DNA from: a virus
Direction: 5' to 3' (one strand)
Length of the DNA: 64,000 bases
Virus record (IMG/VR): IMGVR_UViG_3300025736_000023
Span: 1 to 64,000 of that record
In this document: piece after piece, positions 32,133 through 53,133 of the stretch
Position numbering within the stretch: position 1 is the stretch's first letter
How the letters are laid out: each line of letters begins with the position of its first letter
Notes under the pieces: model-generated
The model's input: the letters and a program-made list of their open reading frames with translations, nothing else
Database searches by the model: none
What the model was told of the DNA's origin: nothing
Made by a program: the position numbers and the translations under genes

Positions 32133-34001
32133 CTACTTTTTTTTGTGCCAAACACCTTGAAGGGTACGTCCACGTTTACGTTGCACCAAACCCCTAGCCT
32201 CTACCGTTTTGTACACTCTACCATGCAGGAAACTACGATTAGTCCCATACTCCTCTAAAATACAAGACTCGGAAGAAAGAATGTCCATCCAGTTACCATG
32301 TCTTAGAAGTCTTGCGCGTTTAGCATAATACTTAGGATAGTACACTGATGGTACCGAAAAAAGCACTTGAGGGACTATACCCAACTGGTTTCGTATTTGT
32401 AGAGCTATTTCTTTATTGCCTAACTGTTGTAGTACCCCCATACTGGCGCAGACTGCAGGCATTGTCACGCCAGATCGATGGAGCACAGGGGGGTCTAACA
32501 AACCTTTGGTGCAAGATATTAACTTTGGAGCGTTCACACCTCTGGCTGCAAGTTTCTCACGCGCAGTCTCCAAGTTTTCCGGTGCAACAATCCCTACAAC
32601 CTCATAACCCCGCTGTATAAGACCCTTGTATAGAATTCCTTCTCCTACACCCATATCCCAAACAGGCCCAGGTGCGGGTATTAGCTTTGTAAACCAATCA
32701 AAGAAACCAGTATGATCTGCAACTGTCTCATTAGGGGCGTTAGGTATGCGGCTGTTCCGAACGCTAGAGTCTGCAGGGCTAACACCCTCTATTATGTCAA
32801 GCAGTTTTCTCCCTACACTAGCAGGGCCATGTTCTCTTGCGAACCATTGAGCAGCCCGTTGCCCCTTCTGGTACGCTTCCTCTCTATGATTATACACCCA
32901 GCGCATCGTTTCAATTAGTTCATCCCAATCTGGGAGATACCAGTTCCCTCCTAGTGGCGAGTCCTCTGTTTTACCTGTTTGAATTGGAAAGGTGTACTGT
33001 GGATCACACATCGGGATGAGTCCGGTATTGTTTGATAGAATTGTGGGTAGCCCAGTAGCTATAGCTTCCCGAGGGGGCATTCCAAAACCCTCCCCTTTGG
33101 ATGCAAACACCATAGCATCCGCGTTGTGCATCCAATCTAACATCTTTTGAGGAAACCAATCGGCGCTGATAATGCTGACTCTTGGATCGTTACCTGTGCC
33201 TGGAAGCTGGTTTTCCCCCCAACCGAAATACCCCAAACGGGTCTTGAATTCAAATCTAACATTAGGATATTGCTTCAGTGGAAACGCTTTTTTGAAGGCA
33301 TCCAGAGTTTCCAAAGGGGATTTTCGCCCTGATAATGTTCCAAAAGTGATAAAAGTGAACGTGTCTTTAGGTTCTCTCTTCGTTGCTGTATGATACATTG
33401 GATTGATTGACAGCGGCGACACCACTACTGGAGCAGTCACAAACTGTTCAAATACATCTTTACAATAACTACAAGGAACTACTAGCAAATCAACCTCTCC
33501 ACAGTCATGCTTCCATTCAGGTAAGTTTACTAGCGGGTCGTCTGACTCGTACATGGTCAACCCTATTCTATAGGGAGTAGGTAGCTTCTTGAATTCTCCT
33601 GGAGTTGCCATACAAATGCCGACTCTGTGTGCTCGCTGTTCTGGCTTCCGCAGCATTGCTATAGTCTCAGGCAAAAGTCCCTCTTTGGACATGAACCAAC
33701 ATTGATTCACAGATATTTGACAACCCACGCTCGTTAGTGCATGTATCATGTTCTCAGCAGCAGTTGCGTAACCGTCTCCCATACTGAATGGGCTCAACCA
33801 GTAAACATGAGTTCCTTCAGGAGTCTTCCAAAGCAGATCCTTAGAATCTTCAAGATCATCCAGATCGGCCTTTCGTCGTGTGTTCATCCAAATAGCGTCT
33901 AGGTAGCTGACTTCTTCCGGGACCTTCAACCAAACGCCCGGAAGAAGCCAACTTCCATGAGGAGCTACTTGTGTAACCCCTGTGCTGTTACGTACTCGCA
34001 T
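32133..34001 (-). CDS. GT4-type glycosyltransferase fused to a methyltransferase-like domain
   Basis: A 622-residue two-domain protein. Residues about 60-410 are a GT-B glycosyltransferase with TFGTLSGRKSPLETLDAF and the EGFGMPPREAIATGLPTI motif holding the conserved acid of GT4 enzymes. Residues about 430-610 have PVWDMGVGEGILYKGLIQRG, an SAM-binding glycine-rich loop, in a class I methyltransferase-like fold. The fusion could add a sugar and methylate it. The gene is immediately downstream of the major capsid gene in the transcript. Confidence 0.75.
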   Translation of the reverse strand: MRVRNSTGVTQVAPHGSWLLPGVWLKVPEEVSYLDAIWMNTRRKADLDDLEDSKDLLWKTPEGTHVYWLSPFSMGDGYATAAENMIHALTSVGCQISVNQCWFMSKEGLLPETIAMLRKPEQRAHRVGICMATPGEFKKLPTPYRIGLTMYESDDPLVNLPEWKHDCGEVDLLVVPCSYCKDVFEQFVTAPVVVSPLSINPMYHTATKREPKDTFTFITFGTLSGRKSPLETLDAFKKAFPLKQYPNVRFEFKTRLGYFGWGENQLPGTGNDPRVSIISADWFPQKMLDWMHNADAMVFASKGEGFGMPPREAIATGLPTILSNNTGLIPMCDPQYTFPIQTGKTEDSPLGGNWYLPDWDELIETMRWVYNHREEAYQKGQRAAQWFAREHGPASVGRKLLDIIEGVSPADSSVRNSRIPNAPNETVADHTGFFDWFTKLIPAPGPVWDMGVGEGILYKGLIQRGYEVVGIVAPENLETAREKLAARGVNAPKLISCTKGLLDPPVLHRSGVTMPAVCASMGVLQQLGNKEIALQIRNQLGIVPQVLFSVPSVYYPKYYAKRARLLRHGNWMDILSSESCILEEYGTNRSFLHGRVYKTVEARGLVQRKRGRTLQGVWHKKK

Positions 34002-42722: not shown

Positions 42723-42848
42723 CTATTTCTTTCCAATGGGGACACCGCGAGGACCGTTGCCCTTACCGCGTCCTAGTCCCTGACCCTTGCCACCACTCCT
42801 GATCTTGCCTCCTGGACAGGATGGATACGTTGTTTTCTTCTTAGCCAT
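42723..42848 (-). CDS. Very small basic Gly/Lys-rich protein, 41 aa
   Basis: The ATG at 42848 overlaps the aminotransferase stop by 8 nt. The product starts MAKKKTTYPSCPGGKI and is rich in Gly and Lys, with a repeated G(K/R)G pattern (GGKGQGLGRGKG). I have a memory of similar short proteins in phages but know no function. The basic, Gly-rich sequence suits DNA, RNA or virion interior binding. Confidence 0.55.
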   Translation of the reverse strand: MAKKKTTYPSCPGGKIRSGGKGQGLGRGKGNGPRGVPIGKK

Positions 42849-44019
42849 TATCAGCGACTCCTTTACTGATTTCTAACGAGTATTTTACACAATGCCGAAT
42901 CACTTCACAAACCCTAGCAACGTCAGCTTGATTCATAGCCATTCCAGTAGGCAGAACAATAGTTCTACTAGCCACCTCCTCTGTCCTTGGGAGCTCCCAA
43001 TGTCGCTGGCTGTAAGGTCTTGCTTCGTGACAGGGAGGTGAAAAGTACCGCCGGGCTAAAATGTTCTCTGCCCAAAGCGCTTTTGCAAGCGTATCAGCAG
43101 ATAATCCCTCTTTCAATACTTCTATGACAACATATTGATAATTGCTATTCCCTCCTAAAGGATACACCCTAATGCCAGATATGTCAAGTCCTTCAGAGTA
43201 AATAGTAAAGTTAGCATAGTTATGATCAATAAATGTAGGCACACCAGTAAGGTTCATCACGCCTACAGCGGCGTGTAATTCGCTTAGTTTAGCGTTAATG
43301 CCTAGTCCGTATACAGAATGATCCCCAGGTTTATCGCCAGCGAAACCGAAATTGCGTAATTCTCTAAGTTTCAGAGTTAAACTGGGACTATTTGTGGTTA
43401 TTGCACCGCCCTCAATGCTGTTGAAGAACTTTGTTGCATGGAATGAAAAGACCTCACAAGCTCCATAATTTCCTATTCTATCCCAGCTAGGTCCACAGAG
43501 AAAAGCATGTGCAGCATCAAAGAACAGAGGCAATCCGTGTCTCCCTGCGATCTCAGTTAGTTCCTTGGGGGCACAGGGGGTACCCCACACATGTACTCCT
43601 AATATCCCGACAGTACGATCGGTAATTTTCTTCTCTACATCGATGGGATCAAGCACGTGTGTTTTTGGGTCAATGTCCGCAAAGATTGGCGTGTACCCTT
43701 GCCAGGCCAGTGCGTGTGGAGTAGCTATAAAAGTGAAAGATGGCATGATCACCTCGCCGAGCTTTGGCATTAACGCTCTAGCAGCAATCATCAAACCCAA
43801 GGTACCGTTAGCTACAGCCACACTCCAAGGTACCGACAGTTTATTACACAATTGAGCCTCGAACTGCTGTACCTGCACTCCATTGTTGGTAAGCCACTGA
43901 CTCTCTAGCACGCTCTTAAAAACTCTTAATAGCATATCGTGGTGTACCATGTTAGGGCGGCCCACATGCTTGGGCTTTTCAAACGCTGGTTCGCCACCAA
44001 AGATAGCTAGTTTTTTCAT
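42841..44019 (-). CDS. DegT/DnrJ/EryC1-family sugar aminotransferase
   Basis: A 392-residue PLP-dependent enzyme. ESQWLTNNGVQVQQFEAQL and VAVANGTLGLMIAARAL are the usual start, then DPKTHVLDP, LFFDAAHAFLCGPSW, and the Schiff-base Lys in FSFHATKFFNSIEGGAI. RNFGFAGDKPG and GLGINAKLSELHAAVG complete the family's signature. Such enzymes transfer an amino group to a keto-sugar nucleotide. The acyltransferase gene next in line would then acylate the amine, so the pair could make an N-acyl amino sugar. Confidence 0.85.
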   Translation of the reverse strand: MKKLAIFGGEPAFEKPKHVGRPNMVHHDMLLRVFKSVLESQWLTNNGVQVQQFEAQLCNKLSVPWSVAVANGTLGLMIAARALMPKLGEVIMPSFTFIATPHALAWQGYTPIFADIDPKTHVLDPIDVEKKITDRTVGILGVHVWGTPCAPKELTEIAGRHGLPLFFDAAHAFLCGPSWDRIGNYGACEVFSFHATKFFNSIEGGAITTNSPSLTLKLRELRNFGFAGDKPGDHSVYGLGINAKLSELHAAVGVMNLTGVPTFIDHNYANFTIYSEGLDISGIRVYPLGGNSNYQYVVIEVLKEGLSADTLAKALWAENILARRYFSPPCHEARPYSQRHWELPRTEEVASRTIVLPTGMAMNQADVARVCEVIRHCVKYSLEISKGVADNG

Positions 44020-44022
44020 GTC

Positions 44023-44598
44023 TTATCCTGTATCCGCCTCTAATGTTGGGGGCATAGATGTTTCTAGCATTCGCCTTCGGTATATCTCTTGTTCAAGCAG
44101 CTTCTCTAGTTCTAAGACACGCTCTTTAGGACGTTCTCTTATATATCTAACAGGACTCCCAGCGTAAATAGACCACGGCAGCAAAGTAGTGTTTTGTAAC
44201 ACTAGGGACATAGCACCTACAACGACGCCATCAGGTATAAACACGCCAGGTAGAATGACTGAGTTAGCACCAACCATGCAGTGCCGACCAATCTCTACCC
44301 GAGAGCGGATTGCTACCCTAAAAGGAGCTGGAATAGCTGCGCCTAACAAACTTGCTCCTGAAATGTCCTCTGTCCCTGTGAAAATGCGTACTCCACTGGA
44401 CAGAGTAGAATAGTCGCCTATGGAGCACTCTCCACCACCTGTTATGGATGCAAACGACGCAATATGCACATAATTGCCCAGGAGGGTCCATCGCTTGCTA
44501 ACAATGAACACAAAGTCATCTATGATGATATTATGCCCCCAAACGATGTTTTCAGGGTATGCTAGTTTTGCTAAAGGGAATATCTTATTGTCTAGCAT
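44023..44598 (-). CDS. Hexapeptide-repeat (LbH) acyltransferase
   Basis: Start at ATG 44598 (TTG at 44613 would put GGAG inside the gene). The 191-residue product shows the turns of a left-handed beta-helix (IVWGHNIIIDDFVFIV, ASITGGGECSIGDYSTLSSG, VEIGRHCMVGANSVILPGVFIPDG), ending with a catalytic-type segment and a helical C-terminus that could trimerise. It is adjacent to the sugar aminotransferase, so acylation of an amino sugar (for example an N-acetyl group from acetyl-CoA) is the natural inference. The exact sugar is unknown. Confidence 0.8.
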   Translation of the reverse strand: MLDNKIFPLAKLAYPENIVWGHNIIIDDFVFIVSKRWTLLGNYVHIASFASITGGGECSIGDYSTLSSGVRIFTGTEDISGASLLGAAIPAPFRVAIRSRVEIGRHCMVGANSVILPGVFIPDGVVVGAMSLVLQNTTLLPWSIYAGSPVRYIRERPKERVLELEKLLEQEIYRRRMLETSMPPTLEADTG

Positions 44599-45646
44599 GA
44601 AGAAGCACTCCAAATCTAGTAACCCACTGCTGCGCTAATACTGTATAATCATGAACTTGCTCTTCAGCTTGTGCCTGCAATTGTATTTTGTACAATTCAG
44701 GATTTAGCAGGAGATCACTAGCTGCATTTGCAAAAGCTAGTTGCCATTCTCCCTTACGCGGGACAACAGTACCGGTGCGCCCTTGAATTACTCTCTCTGG
44801 CAAAGCGCTTAGATCAGTAACAACTAGCGCGTTTCTTGCTGCAGCACACTCCATAGCCGCCATACAACACATCTCAGGAGATGCAGGACTACCTGGGAGT
44901 AACATCACCTGGCTCTGTAACTGCTCTTCAATAAGCTGATTTCTGGGAACATATCCCAAATAGGTGATCCCTTCAACTCCAGTTATACCAACATCTGTAG
45001 CCCCAACCCAGAAGGGATCCCCAAGGTGTATCCCCCATAACTCCATACCGCCTGTAACGTGTAATGTAGCCCAAGGTACTCTCTTACGGATCAAGGGCCA
45101 AATTGTAACTAGAGAGCGTAAACCACGCTCAGGCACACTACAGTAAACACACCTACCACGTACTTTAGATAAACTGCGCCTACTGTAGCCTAAATAATGA
45201 ATACCTGCATTGCTCAACAAGTACAGACTCTCATCTATAGGGTGCTGCTGTTGAAAACGTGCCTTCTGATGCTCACTGATCACAATAACTAATTGGACAT
45301 CTCCTGCACTGACATAGGCAGGTAAGTTAGGGATGGCTGGGTCGCAACAAAAGATAGCTTTGACAGGGGCGACCATACCCTTAAGAGCATTAGGAAAACG
45401 CAAAGCAATAACTACGTCAAATTCCTCGTTGAATCGTTCGGGACCCTCGATAGTTCGCCATTCCACACCCCTATGCTCATGTGCATGAGTCCCAGGGATA
45501 TAGATACGTACATTGTGCCCTAACTTTGCCAAAGCAAAAGCATACTGCACCATCGCACCCTCGGAGCCCCCGTCGTCACCCATATCGTAAGATCTGCCTG
45601 AGAAGTGTGCAGGTCGGCCTGTCTTGTATACAAAAGCTATGCGCAT
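44585..45646 (-). CDS. GT4-type glycosyltransferase
   Basis: A 353-residue GT-B protein: MRIAFVYKTGRPAHFSGRSYDMGDDGGSEGAMVQYAFALAKLG as the N-domain, ISEHQKARF, and the C-domain signature VMLLPGSPASPEMCCMAAMECAAARNALVVTDLSALPE, where the Glu in MECAAA takes the place of the conserved acid. It overlaps the acyltransferase gene. It is part of a run from 42841 to 49184 devoted to sugar chemistry. Confidence 0.8.
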   Translation of the reverse strand: MRIAFVYKTGRPAHFSGRSYDMGDDGGSEGAMVQYAFALAKLGHNVRIYIPGTHAHEHRGVEWRTIEGPERFNEEFDVVIALRFPNALKGMVAPVKAIFCCDPAIPNLPAYVSAGDVQLVIVISEHQKARFQQQHPIDESLYLLSNAGIHYLGYSRRSLSKVRGRCVYCSVPERGLRSLVTIWPLIRKRVPWATLHVTGGMELWGIHLGDPFWVGATDVGITGVEGITYLGYVPRNQLIEEQLQSQVMLLPGSPASPEMCCMAAMECAAARNALVVTDLSALPERVIQGRTGTVVPRKGEWQLAFANAASDLLLNPELYKIQLQAQAEEQVHDYTVLAQQWVTRFGVLLHARQ

Positions 45647-46689
45647 TGGTCCTTCTTTCTCAAAAGTACAGACGCCACTTGGACGTTCACTCCCTTAGCG
45701 AATACTGGGGGCGCTTGAGCCTTAATAGGCCAATCATTCCAATCATTTCTAGCAAAGTCTGCTGGCTGACAAAGAGTGGCAATATCTCTAAAGGGGGTAA
45801 CTAGACGAGCATAAACCGAGCTCTCATCATAAATACGTCGTCCAGTAGTTTTACCGGGATACTCTTCATACCCTTTACCAAAATCAAAGGTGATTGCCAA
45901 TAACCCATTAGGTTTCAACACTCTTAGCATCTCTGAAACAGCTTTGCCATCCTCTGGAATATGCTTAATGCAAGCCGTGCAAATAACGTCGTCAAAACTG
46001 TTGTTTTCAAATGGAAGATTAGTTGCATCCGCCGCTTGAACGTGTATTCCTGGTCCCGGCTTGATCTGTACTGTACTGATATCTATGGCAGTAACGGAAG
46101 CTCCCATACTCGATAGATAGGTAGGGAGTATACTTTCCCTGGTACCAACATCTAATATCTTGTGATTTTGTACAACCCCCAAGAAGATTGTGGCTCTGAT
46201 ATGCTCCCATTGGCGCATTAGGGGCATTTTATTGTCCCCAAAACCCTTAAGCGTAGCTGATTCTTTAGCGAAGCAAAACTCTCGAAAGTCCTGCTCTAAG
46301 TAGCCCCCCGAGACACAATCAAGATCGATCCAAGGTCTAAGAGTTGACATCCAATTCACCTTATTTATATGGCACTCATCCGCCGCGCCTCCGAGATGAA
46401 AATCAGCAAACTGTACCCAAACTCGCCTCTTGCCTTCTCTCCACCAGTTGGCAAGACGGTGCCAACCATCTAACACTACCAGGCAATGCTTACAGATGAT
46501 GATAGGAGACGCTTCTAATTCTCCACTATGATACTTTCTCACGCCAGACCAATCAGTGCATGGATGGCACCTGAAGTTGATCCACTCGATAGGCCACAAC
46601 CTGGCCTCAGTGACCTCTATTTCAGCACCGTCGTACATTGCTCTAGGCATGATCATACTGGCGATATTGTTTTGGTATTGGAGCTCCAT
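45637..46689 (-). CDS. ParB-like / SAM methyltransferase fusion
   Basis: The start is uncertain: ATG 46689 is used here, since a GTG at 46782 would overlap the upstream gene by 140 nt and no strong ribosome-binding site is seen at either. Residues about 1-110 contain SPIIICKHCLVVLDGWHRLANWW, like the ParB/sulfiredoxin nucleotide-binding 'GxHRL' fold. The second part has a class I methyltransferase: KILDVGTRESILPTYLSS, TAIDIS, and FDDVICTACIKHIPEDGKAVSEMLRVLKPNG, a type 11 motif IV region. A role in sugar or protein methylation within the glycosylation cluster is possible. Confidence 0.6.
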   Translation of the reverse strand: MELQYQNNIASMIMPRAMYDGAEIEVTEARLWPIEWINFRCHPCTDWSGVRKYHSGELEASPIIICKHCLVVLDGWHRLANWWREGKRRVWVQFADFHLGGAADECHINKVNWMSTLRPWIDLDCVSGGYLEQDFREFCFAKESATLKGFGDNKMPLMRQWEHIRATIFLGVVQNHKILDVGTRESILPTYLSSMGASVTAIDISTVQIKPGPGIHVQAADATNLPFENNSFDDVICTACIKHIPEDGKAVSEMLRVLKPNGLLAITFDFGKGYEEYPGKTTGRRIYDESSVYARLVTPFRDIATLCQPADFARNDWNDWPIKAQAPPVFAKGVNVQVASVLLRKKDQCA

Positions 46690-47398
46690 GCTTTCGGAAT
46701 ATGTAGGGCATCGATTTTTTGTGGCTGTCCAAAAATGCTTTATTTCTCTTGTGCCATTGATGGTACCCTGTAATGTCGTCACATGTTAGCAGGTGATACC
46801 CAGCATCCGTTAGACACCAGCCAAAATCGCAATCGTTAGCATTTGCCCCTGGAATGAGCTCATCCCAACCGCCCACGTCATGCCAAGCCTGTAGAGGAAT
46901 AATCACATTAGCACCTAAAATAGCTCTACAGGACGGCAAGAGTTTGTAGTCAAACCAGTTCTTTCCATGTACTCCTAGTCGGTGATCTGCCCTAGCTTTA
47001 GAGCGGTCTCCTGACTTTGGTATCCAATCGTACCGGCCTGCTAATACCCGCTTACGATACTTGGCGATGTGCCTATAGGCGTTCTCAATAGCGTCGGGAG
47101 AGAATAGAATGTCCCCATCTGTGTACCAAATGTGGGTGGTTGCTCCAGGTACTGCTTTAGTACCTATATTCAATGTGGCTGCTACCCCAAGTGGGAGAAT
47201 ACCTCCAGTGAACACATGCCTTACATGAAAGGCACGACTGTTCGCAATAGATAGTGCCCTAATTGGGTCTGTACTAGCATCATCTGCAACGACTAGAGTG
47301 AAGTCTCTCCTAGTTTGTAGCGACCATGCTTTGATCGATTCTTGGACGTGGTCTATTCGGTTGTGAACTGCCATAACTACACTAATATGTTTAACCAT
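46643..47398 (-). CDS. GT2-type glycosyltransferase, single domain
   Basis: The start at ATG 47398 is chosen because it overlaps the upstream TAA by 8 nt, the same geometry as other pairs here. The 251-residue product has HISVVMAVHNRIDHVQESIKAW, VVADDASTDP, the DxD in IWYTDGDILFSPD, and a late GWDELIPGANANDCDFGWCL with the catalytic acid. It is a normal-length GT-A glycosyltransferase. Confidence 0.82.
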   Translation of the reverse strand: MVKHISVVMAVHNRIDHVQESIKAWSLQTRRDFTLVVADDASTDPIRALSIANSRAFHVRHVFTGGILPLGVAATLNIGTKAVPGATTHIWYTDGDILFSPDAIENAYRHIAKYRKRVLAGRYDWIPKSGDRSKARADHRLGVHGKNWFDYKLLPSCRAILGANVIIPLQAWHDVGGWDELIPGANANDCDFGWCLTDAGYHLLTCDDITGYHQWHKRNKAFLDSHKKSMPYIFRKHGAPIPKQYRQYDHA

Positions 47399-49184
47399 CT
47401 GACTTTGGGCCTCCTTTGAAACTAGGGGTGATATAGATATCATCGCCTTCGCCCCATATTTGTAATCCAACTGACGCCAAATCGTGTTTTGCAGCGATAT
47501 AATGGACATTTTCTACAAGCGTCTGACGATTGGCCACCTGATTTCTATCATGATACACATGATAGCCATGTACCAACCTGGTGAAGATGACAGGATATCC
47601 TGCAAGTTGGGCTCGAATGCTTAACTCACAATCTTGTCCTCCATGAGTGACCATATTTTCATCAAAGCCTCCTAATTCAGTATAGATATTCCTTGGAAAT
47701 AGCAACACATCAGCGAAAAGTGCAGCAGCATACTGCGTTTGTGGGGCACCCTCAAACAGTTCTGGAGAATCTAGCACTCTAGGGTCGGTCCCAATAAGCC
47801 CTTTGGTACGCCCCCCAAATTGAGCCGGGGGCAACGTGCCCTCTACGATCTTGTCCCAATTGGTGTAGATATCATAGGGCCGGATGTGCATTGGGAGCAT
47901 CCAATCATACTGTCCTGCAATTATAGCCTGCGGATTAGCCAGCCGCAAGTTATTAAGGTGCTCTAGTGACGTAGGCTCTAATAGGATATCTGACCCCAAG
48001 AGCAAGAACGCATCTCCACGAGCGATCGCACAACCTCGATTGTATGCTAACGATGCTCGATAACCTTTATGAGGTTGCCAACGATACTGTATTGCAAAGC
48101 GGTCTTGAAACTCTAATAGCACACCAAGAGGGCTATCTACTGAACCATCGTCCGTTACAACTACTTCAATTGGTGCATGATAGTGTTCTAGATTCCGATC
48201 GAGAGCACACAGAGCAAGATATAGATTGTCGCGCCTGTTGTACACAGGCAAAACCACTGAAAGAGAGAAGTTACTGGGCTTAACTGCACGTACAGGCTCC
48301 AATGCAGCGGACTGCACAGGAACCTGCACAGGGGGGATAATCTCTACCGGTTCGTGCGTAGCTATTGCAGGTACTGATACAGGCGTTCCATCGGACATTG
48401 TTGGAGACAGATTGAACAGATGCTCATCGCTGCTGTAACCTACAAATTGACTTCTCAGACGCTCACGGTTTTTTAGGGAATACTTCTCAACCCACTCAAC
48501 GCCCGATCCGTGCTCATAGTGATATAGTGTAGCTTTGGGCTGGTAAATTACTTTATACCCAGCTTCTCTAACCCGCCAACAAAAGTCGATGTCCTCGAAG
48601 TTGCCCCCTGTGTAGCCCTCGTCGAGACCTCCGAAGTCATTCCATATGGAGCGCCGAATTAGCGCGCAAGCGAAGGTGATAGCGTTAAGTTCTCTACGTT
48701 TAGCTGCATTAACCGAATCGGCTGGTTGGTTTCGGAATGGGTGATAGGGCATACCGTCTACCGTTCGCGCAACCCCAGCGTGCTGTACCGTTAAGCGAAT
48801 GCCAGGCTCCTTCGTATCAGGATAGAGCAAGCGAGCTCCTACAATACCTACGTTAGGATCATTGTCTAGTTCTTCAGCCATAGCCTGTAGCCAACCTGGT
48901 AGCGGTTCAATATCTGAGTTTAGTAGACAGACGTACTCTGATGGCGGTATCTGAGCTACTGCCCAGTTGTTTATCTCAGCATACCCTTTTCTTGTGCGCA
49001 TTTTGAAGACAGTGGCCAACCCTTTCTCAACAAGTTCATCCAAATAGTCCTGCAGCTCAGTCTGCGGAGAGCAATCATCGGCTATGTAGATGGTGTGCGG
49101 GCGCATAGTACGCTCGACTAAGGCTGGAATACATCGTTTTATGTGATGTACTCCATTGAACGTAGGAATAACAATAGGTATCAC
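47391..49184 (-). CDS. Tandem GT2 glycosyltransferase (two GT-A domains)
   Basis: The start at GTG 49184 follows GAGGGGGG; a TTG at 49202 would put this site inside. The 597-residue protein has two GT2 domains. The first has IPIVIPTFNGVHHIKRCIPAL, YIADDCSPQ, CLLNSDIEPLPGWL and GGNFEDIDFCWRVREAGY. The second has SVVLPVYNRRDNLYLALCAL, VTDDGSVDS, LLLGSDILLEP and THGGQDCELSIRAQLAGY. Two enzymes in one chain suggest that it adds two sugars or builds a repeating unit. It is the first gene after the terminase. Confidence 0.85.
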   Translation of the reverse strand: MIPIVIPTFNGVHHIKRCIPALVERTMRPHTIYIADDCSPQTELQDYLDELVEKGLATVFKMRTRKGYAEINNWAVAQIPPSEYVCLLNSDIEPLPGWLQAMAEELDNDPNVGIVGARLLYPDTKEPGIRLTVQHAGVARTVDGMPYHPFRNQPADSVNAAKRRELNAITFACALIRRSIWNDFGGLDEGYTGGNFEDIDFCWRVREAGYKVIYQPKATLYHYEHGSGVEWVEKYSLKNRERLRSQFVGYSSDEHLFNLSPTMSDGTPVSVPAIATHEPVEIIPPVQVPVQSAALEPVRAVKPSNFSLSVVLPVYNRRDNLYLALCALDRNLEHYHAPIEVVVTDDGSVDSPLGVLLEFQDRFAIQYRWQPHKGYRASLAYNRGCAIARGDAFLLLGSDILLEPTSLEHLNNLRLANPQAIIAGQYDWMLPMHIRPYDIYTNWDKIVEGTLPPAQFGGRTKGLIGTDPRVLDSPELFEGAPQTQYAAALFADVLLFPRNIYTELGGFDENMVTHGGQDCELSIRAQLAGYPVIFTRLVHGYHVYHDRNQVANRQTLVENVHYIAAKHDLASVGLQIWGEGDDIYITPSFKGGPKSDG

Positions 49185-49194
49185 GATCCCCCCT

Positions 49195-51024
49195 CTAGGC
49201 AAACATAACTGGAACGAATATCTTTTTCGGCTCTGGAATTGTTTCTGGATCTACACCGGCTGCTATTGCTGCAGCAACCTGCATAGCATGAATCTTATTC
49301 TCTGCTAAAGCGTCGTATTTTGCATATGGATCCGTCTCATTAGGCGCAAGTAATCCAGCATTTGGGGCTCTACTAGGCGTAAATTCGTGCGCCTGAGCTT
49401 GGATTAACTCTGTAGATATCTGTGCCTCCCAGCCTTTAGCTAGGGTTCGGCAACCTTCTAGAGCATCCAGTCCGTCGTCGTATGCGCCCATCGGCCACTC
49501 GGTCAGCTCTTTCTTGAGCTCTGTCTGTCCATCTTCCAAGATTAACAAATAGCCGTTAAGAAGGTCCGGCTGTAGGGAATCAATGCGCATTTTCTTATTA
49601 GATAGCTGGTTATATGGCTCTACCGGTAGATAAATGCCCTCTTCCATAGATCGGCGTGCTGATTCCGTTGCAAACAACGCCTGGAAAGCGTTTTTTTCGA
49701 TTCTCCAACGAGCAATAGGATATTGTTTGGCATGTTTGTTCTGCGCATTGATGATTTGATTCGGAGGGCGCCGTTTGATATCTGCAACGATGGTAAACAT
49801 TTGCCGGGTGGGTGCTTTAGCAACCAGAATGATTGCTGAAAAGTCTGATCTAGTGGTAGATCCCATACTGGGGTCAGTAAAGCCAAATATAGCACACGTA
49901 CTAAGCTCGACTGCAGGCGCACCATCGGTGGGTACCAACCATATGCTTGCTGTTTCCTGTCTATGTTCCATGCGGAAGGTTTGCCACTCCTTGAAAAGCC
50001 TACTTTCTGGGTCTACAGGCTCATTCTGTAACTCTGTAGCGAATGTAGCAGAACCGCCTGATACTCTAGTAAGCATCAAATCATAGTAGCTAAAAGCCTC
50101 CGGCCAGGCGGACTCCGCGCCCTTGAGCATATCGGCCTTGTTCTGAACAAAGAAGGCATGAGCTGTCTTCTCCTTATCGGGGTCGGCAATGTTGGTAACT
50201 AACTCGGTCCATTGATCCCACAAGTCTTGATTCTCAGCCCAAGATACCACAGCACGGTATAGCCTGGAGTGGAACATAGGGTTGGCTTCAAGATTTTTGA
50301 GCAGACAATCAAAGTGGAGGAAGTTGCCTACCACGAACACCTTAGTATCAGACCAACCGGCGTTCATAACAGAGCGCCAGAACCATTTGCGGTGGGCCTC
50401 TCTTCGAGTTGCCGACTGGACCCCTTCTAGGTTCTCCGAGTCGTCTACAATAATCAGGTCTGGGCGGTACTGCAGGAACTTGCGTCCTCGTATCTTCATT
50501 CTTGCGCCCAAGGCGATTAGCTTCACCCTGTTGGCAGTGGTGATATCGTCCTCTTGCCACTTTGCACCCTGGAGATCCCCGAAGTCCTCCTTGATGCGGT
50601 CGTTGTGCTCTATCTCATCTTTGATAGTAGCAAGCTGTTGTTTGGCCTGGGTATGTGCGTCTGAGATGATTACAATGAACCGGCGCTTTTTAAAGCAGAC
50701 GGTCCACAGGGGGAGGGCCAACGTGGTTGTAGTCGTTTTACCGAAACCACGAGGCCACACTAGAGCGTTATTGACCTTGCCTGGGGCAGCCATTGCGCTC
50801 TGCATAGTACGATAGGTCTCTTTGTGCAAGGGTGCAGGTGTGCAATCGAAGTGGTTGGGTAGGTAGAATCTGGCAAAAAACTCAAGATCTATCTCAGCCA
50901 GCAGCATCCACAGCTCTTGAGCAGGTGGCCTATCAAGATGGCCGCTCTGGGCCAGAGCCTCTAGCGAAAAGTTCCGCTGAAGGGCCTCTCGTATAAGAAT
51001 GAGGTCATTTGTAGTTAGTTCCAT
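49195..51024 (-). CDS. terL: Terminase large subunit
   Basis: A 609-residue protein. The N-terminal ATPase has Walker A PRGFGKTT at residues 91-98 and Walker B IIVDDSE at 191-197. The nuclease domain has D384 in FGFTDPSMGS and a later acidic motif YDDGLDALEG. It packages DNA into the prohead with the preceding terminase-small-like protein. Its ATG is immediately preceded by the second copy of a 20-bp repeat. Confidence 0.9.
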   Translation of the reverse strand: MELTTNDLILIREALQRNFSLEALAQSGHLDRPPAQELWMLLAEIDLEFFARFYLPNHFDCTPAPLHKETYRTMQSAMAAPGKVNNALVWPRGFGKTTTTTLALPLWTVCFKKRRFIVIISDAHTQAKQQLATIKDEIEHNDRIKEDFGDLQGAKWQEDDITTANRVKLIALGARMKIRGRKFLQYRPDLIIVDDSENLEGVQSATRREAHRKWFWRSVMNAGWSDTKVFVVGNFLHFDCLLKNLEANPMFHSRLYRAVVSWAENQDLWDQWTELVTNIADPDKEKTAHAFFVQNKADMLKGAESAWPEAFSYYDLMLTRVSGGSATFATELQNEPVDPESRLFKEWQTFRMEHRQETASIWLVPTDGAPAVELSTCAIFGFTDPSMGSTTRSDFSAIILVAKAPTRQMFTIVADIKRRPPNQIINAQNKHAKQYPIARWRIEKNAFQALFATESARRSMEEGIYLPVEPYNQLSNKKMRIDSLQPDLLNGYLLILEDGQTELKKELTEWPMGAYDDGLDALEGCRTLAKGWEAQISTELIQAQAHEFTPSRAPNAGLLAPNETDPYAKYDALAENKIHAMQVAAAIAAGVDPETIPEPKKIFVPVMFA

Positions 51025-51274: not shown

Positions 51275-51841
51275 TTACCGTTTATTATCTGTGATCTGGA
51301 TACCAGTCATTTCAAACATCAGGGCACGGAGAGTGGGCACAGGGGCTCCACTGGCTAATGTAGTCGTTTCGCCTTGTGGTAGGGCGGTAGCACCTTTCAT
51401 AGGCAGAGCACCGATCGATTGCTGAATAGCGACAAACTCTCGGAGCATTTTCCAGTAGGCGGCGATGGCTGTATCCAAGTATGGAATCCGTTCGAGACGT
51501 GATTTCTCTATGTTTATTACCGCACCCATGCGGTCTGAAGACAACCGCAATAAGCGCTCCATTTCACCTAGCGCATCAACTTTGATAGAGAGATTGTTAT
51601 ATTTTGCTTGCAGAATGGACATTTCAAGAATGTCATCCGCAGGAATGCTATCGAGGTACGTATAGATGTCAGCAACAGGTATGATGACGTTCTTGGTTTC
51701 CCGCATGAAAGAGAAGATCCTTGGTGGAGACCAGCAGGAACACAAAAGCTCCCTAACCTCCTGTTCGTAGGGAGCAATGCTCTCGGGAACAGCGAGAGGG
51801 ACAAGCGCATTATTTTCTGCGTCTAGGATTTCGACTTTCAT
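51275..51841 (-). CDS. Terminase small subunit-like protein
   Basis: A 188-residue helical protein immediately upstream of the terminase large subunit region. The N-terminal part (EQEVRELLCSCWSPPRIFSFM) may be a helix-turn-helix-like DNA-binding segment, and the middle is long helices. Size and position fit a small terminase subunit. No motif proves it. Confidence 0.5.
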   Translation of the reverse strand: MKVEILDAENNALVPLAVPESIAPYEQEVRELLCSCWSPPRIFSFMRETKNVIIPVADIYTYLDSIPADDILEMSILQAKYNNLSIKVDALGEMERLLRLSSDRMGAVINIEKSRLERIPYLDTAIAAYWKMLREFVAIQQSIGALPMKGATALPQGETTTLASGAPVPTLRALMFEMTGIQITDNKR

Positions 51842-51862
51842 ATACTTTATGTCTTAAGAGGC

Positions 51863-52144
51863 TTAGTCAGGCTGCTCTGAGAGCCGCCAGCTCGCAAAAG
51901 TATCTGCTATTGGTACACAGCCCATACCACCGTGTATAGAGTTGCCGTAGTGATAGCAAACAACCCCTGCCTGCCAATCAACTACTCGCAATATCGGCAC
52001 ACCGTGCTTTACGCCGTTCTCCCATCGTGGGTAGATTTTCGTTAGAGTCATTTGGGTGTCAGTGGCAGGCTTAGTGTTAGAGTCTGGTATACATCCACAG
52101 ACCATAATCAGTATCAAAACAATCAAGGCCAATCGGTTTCTCAT
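51863..52144 (-). CDS. Small secreted or lipoprotein-like protein, 93 aa
   Basis: The ATG at 52144 overlaps the upstream stop (ATGA) with AAGGAAA upstream. The N-terminus is a signal-type helix (RLALIVLILIMVCGC) with a lipobox-like VCGC. The mature part has two Cys (GVVCYHYG and GGMGCVPI) that could pair. It may be exported to the host surface, for example for superinfection exclusion; that is a guess from topology. Confidence 0.5.
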   Translation of the reverse strand: MRNRLALIVLILIMVCGCIPDSNTKPATDTQMTLTKIYPRWENGVKHGVPILRVVDWQAGVVCYHYGNSIHGGMGCVPIADTFASWRLSEQPD

Positions 52145-52571
52145 TTTCCTTGCTCCGGCGGGTTCCATTCATTCCATCTGCTACAACTTGGACAGTGAAC
52201 GTATATGCGGCCATCTTTGAAAACAGCTACTCGATCTAGTGTTTGCATAAATGCTGCAGTAAGGTCTTTAGTTAGAACGGCTCCACACATTATACAGCAC
52301 CATACAGAGGCCACAGCAGGGTCAGTTTCTACAGCTCTATATGCGGCTACGAATTCTGGGTCCTGCATCCACCGTTTCAGTACCTCCTCGTGTGTGATAT
52401 TTCTCTTGGGCGACGGCGGCTCGGGCTTGGGCGGATCCCACCAAAAGTCAGGCGGGGGGCGCTGGCTCCCATTAGTAGCAAACCAACGATCATCATATGC
52501 CCTTACACACTTTTCAACATCATCACCCCAACGTGCATAGATGCAACTCCCCCGGACGGGCTATTGCTCAT
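52141..52571 (-). CDS. Zinc-ribbon protein, apparently frameshifted at a G5 run
   Basis: The C-terminal 75 residues from ATG 52368 hold two CxxC pairs (CCIMCG and HCPSCSRW), a zinc ribbon. But the frame stays open and coding-like upstream (SCIYARWGDDVEKCVRAYDDRW and NITHEEVLKRWMQDPEF) to about 52555 with no good start. An ATG at 52571 (MSNSPSG) leads into a run of five G at 52549-52553 in a frame that joins this one by a -1 shift. In the same frame, a GTG at 52587 with a strong site (AAGGGGGG) is closed after 8 codons by a TAG. This is either a sequencing error of one base in a homopolymer, a programmed shift, or a recent mutation. The full product would be about 143 residues. Confidence 0.6.
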
Positions 52572-52608
52572 TAGGTCTTTGCCACACAATTCCCCCCTTT
52601 AAGACATC

Positions 52609-52729
52609 AGCGGCTGGCGGGAATTGCACCCGCCATTTACCCTAGCGCCGCTATCTAGCAAGCCCTGACTCGGGCTGATCCTGCTACGGCGGTGGGCTGG
52701 AGTTGCACCAGCCGTGCCTTTGCACCGCC
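52609..52729 (-). ncRNA. Three tandem structured hairpins in the late-operon leader
   Basis: Elements at 52609-52652, 52656-52686 and 52688-52729 each have an outer stem (6, 5 and 7 bp) that stacks on an inner hairpin (6, 5 and 6 bp) with little or no gap on one side and a 5-12 nt bulge on the other. In the two outer elements the inner loop is 7 nt and nearly the same (TGCAATT and TGCAACT on the minus strand). The geometry resembles the acceptor/T-arm half of a tRNA. The minus-strand promoter at 52758-52786 would transcribe all three as the first 150 nt of the late mRNA. No poly-U follows. The function is unknown. Confidence 0.65.
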
Positions 52730-52757: not shown

Positions 52758-52786
52758 AGTATAGCACAGGTTGAGTGGGAATACAA
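52758..52786 (-). promoter_or_regulatory. Late-operon promoter (sigma70-like, extended -10)
   Basis: On the minus strand TTGTAT (52786-52781), a 17-bp spacer and TATACT (52763-52758) preceded by TGC, an extended -10. Transcription would start near 52751. It is the only good minus-strand promoter I see before the 39-kb late operon. Confidence 0.7.
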
Positions 52787-53133
52787 GGCGCGGTGGAAGG
52801 AGACGAAATAGTTGCACTAAATGTACACATTGCTAAAAGTTGCTGGAGTTTGTGAGAGAGAGGCCATACCGCTTTCAGCACCCCACCCCAGTTTTTATCA
52901 CTCGCTTACTGTTTATACCTGCTATCACACATACATGCGGACATGATACCATTACCTTGCACTCGACCAGCTCAAAGACATTATGTAAATAGAACAAATG
53001 TAGTAGGCATATATACCTAGACGCCTAGGCCAAAGAGCCTAGAGAAATATAGGTAAAATGGCGGATGTGAAAATGGCCACGCTATGGTAGGATGTGAATG
53101 CAATGATCGATACACTCAAATGAAAGGGGCAAC
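52787..53133. other. Divergent control region, no gene
   Basis: About 350 bp without a credible reading frame, between the late promoter and the first right-arm gene. It is AT-rich in part and contains the operator module at 53004-53096. No CRISPR or tRNA is seen. Confidence 0.7.
53004..53096 (+). promoter_or_regulatory. Operator module A (three palindromic sites)
   Basis: Three near-palindromes start at 53004 (TAGGCATATATACCTA), 53026 (TAGGCCAAAGAGCCTA) and 53050 (TAGGTAAAATGGCGGATG), spaced 22 and 24 bp. The third continues into GCGGATGTG, a string shared with the other modules, and then TATGGTAGGATGTG at 53083-53096. It precedes the gene at 53134 and probably controls the first right-arm unit. 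Confidence 0.7.

Follow-up and report, generated by a model that had tools for sequence, protein, structure and literature searches.

RNase P binds its substrates along the acceptor-T stack and measures from the elbow, which it clamps (PMC4919913). The enzyme also cleaves model hairpins made of the acceptor stem, T stem and T-loop alone, and two phage RNAs, C4 and M3, are known RNase P substrates (PMC11143913). Among reduced tRNAs, the minimal tRNAs of nematode and mite mitochondria keep the anticodon arm, with the D or the T arm absent (PMC2797822). HK022 offers a known case of a structured RNA soon after a phage promoter, as its putL lies just downstream of PL (PMC9378689). Here, we analyzed the late-operon leader of a phage in a 64-kb window, meaning the whole stretch of DNA that was analyzed, which is contained in a 67.7-kb IMG/VR virus record. 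A sequence-only reading of this DNA had proposed three tandem structures behind the late promoter, each with the geometry of a tRNA reduced to its acceptor and T arm, and had offered a put-like antiterminator as one idea for their role.

Structured elements in the late-operon leader

The late operon occupies the minus strand and runs leftwards (Table 1). A late promoter does stand ahead of the elements, as that reading had claimed. The promoter is of the sigma-70 type with an extended -10 and is also present in a relative, L005, where it lies upstream of terS; the two promoters have TGTGCTATACT and the TTG-17 spacing in common. From this promoter, we infer a minus-strand transcript across the elements.

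Table 1. Predicted features from the late promoter to TerL in the window
Feature	Position	Strand	Details
Late promoter	52758..52786	-	TTGTAT, 17 nt, TATACT, extended -10 TGTGC; expected +1 at ~52751; from sequence
Element A, mini-tRNA-like	52688..52729	-	GGCGGTG caaAGgcac GGCTGG-TGCAACT-CCAGCC CACCGCC
Element B, bulged hairpin	52656..52686	-	10 pairs; loop GAGUCA, not a T-loop
Element C, mini-tRNA-like	52608..52653	-	TAGCGGC gctAGggtaaa TGGCGGG-TGCAATT-CCCGCCA GCCGCTG
Possible ribosome-binding site of first cassette gene	52592..52597	-	GGGGGG; sequence motif
Cassette gene, zinc-ribbon-like (CxxC pairs)	52141..52587	-	possible GTG start at 52587; in-frame TAG at 52561-52563, coding-like frame after it
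Cassette gene, small lipoprotein-like protein	51863..52168	-	phrog_3224
terS-like gene	51275..51841	-	homologue in L005 begins directly at the late promoter
TerL	49195..51024	-	

Elements A and C were found to have the layout proposed in the sequence-only reading: an outer stem, a bulge on the 5' side and an inner hairpin stacked on the 3' side, where neither element has a single unpaired base. Element A folds into an outer stem of 7 bp, a 9-nt bulge and an inner stem of 6 bp closed by the loop UGCAACU; the corresponding values for element C are 7 bp (one of them G-U), 11 nt and 7 bp, with the loop UGCAAUU. The predicted folds have energies of -23 kcal/mol apiece. Both elements thus share the T-arm loop UGCAAYU, which conforms to the T-loop pattern UNCRANN and sits on a stem continuous with the acceptor-like stem, as in a tRNA elbow. 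Their 5' bulges resemble a tRNA D-loop (NNN-AG), with the AG at the same position in each and matched to T-loop residues 55-56 of the UGC loop. The AG played no part in choosing A and C, and because both bulges read AGG they contain GG as well as AG. Aligned with each other, A and C were identical in 30 of 44 columns and showed three pairs in which both bases had changed and one broken pair. Slid controls showed no such double changes, and 57 of 500 shuffles reached the same count, which with two rows is a weak control.

Element B differs from its neighbors. Its hairpin is weaker than those of A and C, and one minihelix with at least 10 pairs was present in 8% of shuffled leaders, so B could have arisen by chance and is possibly only a spacer. 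The proposal of three tandem elements therefore holds for A and C and not for B. Likewise, the description as a tRNA reduced to acceptor and T arm suits A and C, given their D-loop-like bulge, the T-loop covariation and the recurrence in other phages described below; B is not clearly a member.

We compared A and C with chance expectation in several ways. In a structure-only scan of both strands of the window (128 kb of strand), C and A ranked first by number of pairs and by G+C pairs. None of 4000 dinucleotide shuffles of the leader held two elements with at least 13 pairs. The T-arm 11-mer GGTKCRANTCC occurred in the window in A and C only, with 0.37 occurrences expected. The folding energy of the whole leader was ordinary (z -1.5).

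Other identities for the leader were considered and rejected. A 25-aa open reading frame from 52732 has a possible Shine-Dalgarno sequence; however, we found no coding-like frame across the elements among the reading frames examined. Neither ARAGORN nor Rfam reported a tRNA gene, with a four-arm cloverleaf and an anticodon arm, anywhere in the 64-kb window, and the negative ARAGORN result led us to discard complete tRNAs or a tandem of tRNA remnants as an explanation of the leader. No leader element matched an Rfam family at the gathering threshold, nor did the comparable elements of other phages. Type III toxin-antitoxin repeats (a promoter, repeats and a small gene) were dropped, since the elements are not near-identical and the gene has no toxin match.

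We scanned viral and genome collections with TerL for homologous leaders suitable for covariation analysis. These scans gave two further contigs carrying the leader region at 100% identity, no divergent homologue, and one relative without the leader, L005/L063 (two contigs). The latter is the closest different relative, with a TerL 79% identical over the alignment, 9 kb of alignable operon and the same late promoter; its terS starts at about +1. In L005 (9463-9471), the terS ATG follows the -10 box by ~6 nt, and the message is apparently leaderless. Relative to L005, the window adds ~900 nt between the promoter and terS, comprising the structured elements and two cassette genes. Two other relatives, with TerL ~50% identical, have leaders that share no sequence with that of the window. 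The 370-nt leader of L061 had an ordinary energy, no Rfam match and one 10-pair bulged hairpin within chance. GGTKCRANTCC did not occur in the L005 and L061 records, and the remainder of the window's own record held no further elements.

We made several other observations in and around this region. In the first cassette gene, no ATG, GTG or TTG follows the in-frame TAG until 52368, and the TAG is found unchanged in the two contigs that are identical in this region; the gene may be read through, begin at an unusual start or be decaying. Close to the two cassette ends (~52606-52616 and 51846-51856), we noted ATGTCTTAA and, as its reverse complement, TTAAGACAT. Upstream of the late promoter, a block at 52979-53073 has 75% identity to L005 and many GGCCTA/TAGGC motifs, which may be operators that serve a divergent control region. 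Further along the late operon, glycosyltransferase-, methyltransferase- and aminotransferase-like genes are found on the minus strand (42841-49202 and 32133-34001), part of them between TerL and the portal gene. In one of the relatives with TerL ~50% identical, an HNH-like frame (L062:1332-2000) reaches and overlaps the start of TerL.

Minihelices and a proposed elbow pairing in other phages

We searched IMG/VR with the A hairpin, the tandem pair and the C hairpin. These searches returned many phage tRNA genes with a UGCAAYU loop, along with many contexts that ARAGORN did not call. Across 449 distinct phage tRNAs, the D-loop covaried with T-loop base 55: GG was present in 231 of the 234 tRNAs with U55 and absent from 153 of the 178 with G55, typically with AG in its place. 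If our residue numbering is right, G18-U55 would be swapped for A18-G55 in the variant, with G19-C56 retained. This variant elbow (a UGC T-loop with an AG D-loop) was common in phage tRNA arrays, with tRNA genes in L007, L020-L055 and others. Three contexts with a C-type hairpin (L100, L111 and L118) looked like tRNAs that ARAGORN had failed to call; their D arms are odd, and some encode ACCA.

About a dozen unrelated IMG/VR phages carried elements with an acceptor-like stem, a D-loop-like bulge and a T arm, with no D stem and no anticodon arm. GGTGCAAYTCC hairpins occurred in 65 distinct contexts not called as tRNAs by ARAGORN, and these were enriched, relative to swapped flanks, in contiguous outer stems accompanied by a bulge of 5-20 nt. 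Outer stems of at least 5 bp were found in 12 contexts versus 3.8 with swapped flanks, a count reached in 0 of 500 permutations, and stems of at least 6 bp in 6 versus 1.2. A structure-only scan of 1.53 Mb of loci gave 199 minihelices, 31 of which had a UNNRANN loop (6.2 expected); unselected elements with a canonical UUC loop (L098/L099, L151, L163 and L009) were among these. A descriptor scan without a bulge rule yielded 45 distinct elements versus 2 in reversed sequence; as in the other counts, the loci were partly chosen by their UGC T arm, orthologous copies were included and thresholds were set during the work, after looking. The acceptor and T stack, for which ~12 bp would be expected of an RNase P substrate, comprised 13 pairs in A, 13-14 in C and 11-14 in the other elements, a range partly due to the search threshold.

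The bulge tracked the T-loop in these minihelices as well. In the descriptor scan, elements with a UGC T-loop had AG in 12 cases and GG alone in none, and those with a UUC T-loop had GG in 8 and AG alone in 2. An AGYR bulge motif was present in 10 of 14 UGC elements versus 0 of 8 UUC elements in a hand-made list (Fisher p 0.0017). Examples of such D-loop-like bulges, joined directly to the acceptor stem, are aatAGcatcg, aatAGcaatca, gacAGcgta, accGGgactg and aatGGctgtagtt. Because this matching of UGC with AG and of UUC with GG is the same as in full phage tRNAs, it supports a folded tRNA elbow in the minihelices.

In the other phages, the elements lay between genes on the coding strand, and most started 0-11 nt from the upstream stop codon or ran a few nt into it. 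Multiple copies in a gene-element-gene arrangement among small genes were present in L205 (three), L206 (two) and L207 (two) and in none of the reversed controls. By contrast, element A in the window follows a promoter and not a stop codon, and a tandem arrangement was seen in no other phage; pattern scans for a second tandem pair gave none, with matches mostly to tRNA arrays. A CCA past the acceptor strand was encoded in 1 of 24 elements, and the base ahead of the element (N-1) showed no preference for U. No annotated relatives were found for the other element-bearing phages or for L009. The literature searched, which leaves out most subscription papers, contained no description of such a class. 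Taken on their fold, loop and bulge and not on a phylogeny of their own, A and C very probably belong to this recurring mini-tRNA-like class.

Possible function of the elements

The acceptor-T stack and the elbow residues are kept, the decoding parts are lost and the elements elsewhere sit after stop codons, so a processing or end-defining signal fits. Elements A and C would be tandem mini-tRNA-like RNAs with an acceptor-like and T-arm stack of 13-14 pairs, lacking the D stem and anticodon arm, and the D-loop-like bulge of 9-11 nt between the 5' acceptor strand and the T arm would form a tRNA-type elbow with the T-loop. Host RNase P would clamp this elbow, measure along the acceptor-T stack and cut at the 5' base of the element. 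Cleavage there would detach the RNA upstream from that downstream, and the downstream message, which here contains the cassette genes and the late operon, would begin with a structured, protected 5' end. Transcription, the action of RNase P (or RNase Z) and a benefit to the phage are things that we infer. We hold the explanation as a whole, class membership together with a processing or end-defining signal, to have somewhat less than an even chance of being right. RNase P-type processing as the function is, by our analysis, a more tentative assignment. That ~40-nt mini-tRNAs consisting of an acceptor stem, a D-loop and a T arm punctuate polycistronic phage mRNA via RNase P, with two of them defining the late 5' end of this phage, is possible and, in our judgment, rather doubtful.

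Several other roles would be compatible with part of these data. The elements could form structured ends that shield mRNA from exonucleases or from RNase E/J without any RNase P cut, at the 5' end here and at the 3' end of the upstream gene elsewhere. Very stable short folds at the extreme 5' end, and the placement of elements between genes in other phages, would suit such a role; however, stability alone fails to account for the correlation of D-loop and T-loop, which calls for an elbow, and we regard protection without cleavage as unlikely. That correlation also weighs against functionless remains of tRNA genes that have lost their D and anticodon arms. UGCAAYU T arms are frequent in phage tRNA genes, and incomplete tRNA-like sequences occur in the same collection, but both tandem copies have kept their stems intact, with differences that are compensated, and similarly short middle parts recur in unrelated phages with the D-loop of the bulge still matched to the T-loop, which leaves decay quite improbable. 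Nor would the matching, or intact stems on the coding strand, be required of a DNA-level site that marks a boundary or target where small gene cassettes insert, much as integrases use the 3' halves of tRNAs. The A/C pair does open a cassette absent from L005. In L104, L107 and L109, a mini element is kept behind the same 241-242-aa gene and the next gene differs between relatives, and L017 has such a hairpin shortly behind an integrase-like gene. No integrase was identified adjoining the pair in the window, however, and we give this reading little credence.

The put-like antiterminator suggested in the sequence-only reading, a nascent RNA that binds RNA polymerase so that terminators are ignored along the 39-kb operon, has in its favor tandem structured elements directly past a promoter and ahead of a very long operon, much as putL is placed in HK022. 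By contrast, the L005/L063 relative has the same promoter and no leader, which argues against an obligatory antiterminator; among the rivals, this one is the least compatible with a leaderless relative. In addition, putRNA is described as a V-shaped RNA of ~70 nt that comprises two stem-loops and a triplex (PMC9378689); that description mentions no T-loop, and the leader does not have this fold. Comparable elements in other phages sit between genes after stop codons, and no Rfam match was found. We therefore disfavor a put-like antiterminator needed for the operon and consider such a role improbable. Less probable again is a decoy that titrates a host elbow-binding factor, such as RNase P, a tRNA-modifying enzyme or a tRNA-targeting defense. 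Elbow features are retained with all decoding parts gone, as a decoy might require, but the copies are few and embedded in mRNAs, and we see no indication of a specific target.

Should the class prove real, phages would carry a kind of tRNA-like RNA that has been overlooked and escapes standard tRNA and Rfam searches. Such an RNA would represent a naturally occurring minimal RNase P substrate, and it would become possible to ask directly if phages cut their own messages with a tRNA-processing enzyme. The covariation of D-loop and T-loop offers both a simple search rule and simple mutants.

Comparison with known systems

HK022 putRNA is, like the elements described here, a structured RNA shortly behind a phage promoter, although it belongs to early operons and folds differently. 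C4 RNA (P1/P7) and M3 RNA are likewise short structured phage RNAs inside longer phage transcripts. C4 is an antisense regulator and an Rfam family, and that family gave no match to the window elements. The punctuation of mitochondrial polycistronic RNA by tRNAs also relies on tRNA-like units that separate genes and lie on the coding strand; however, it uses true tRNAs, whereas the phage elements cannot decode. The RNase P model substrates (McClain/Altman, cited in PMC11143913) share with A and C a continuous acceptor-T stack closed by a T-loop and the lack of an anticodon arm. These substrates are synthetic, and the phage elements add a D-loop-like bulge matched to the T-loop, without an encoded CCA. 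The minimal tRNAs of nematode and mite mitochondria (PMC2797822) are also tRNA-derived folds without some arms, but the phage elements are reduced in the opposite direction, keeping the T arm and dispensing with the anticodon arm.
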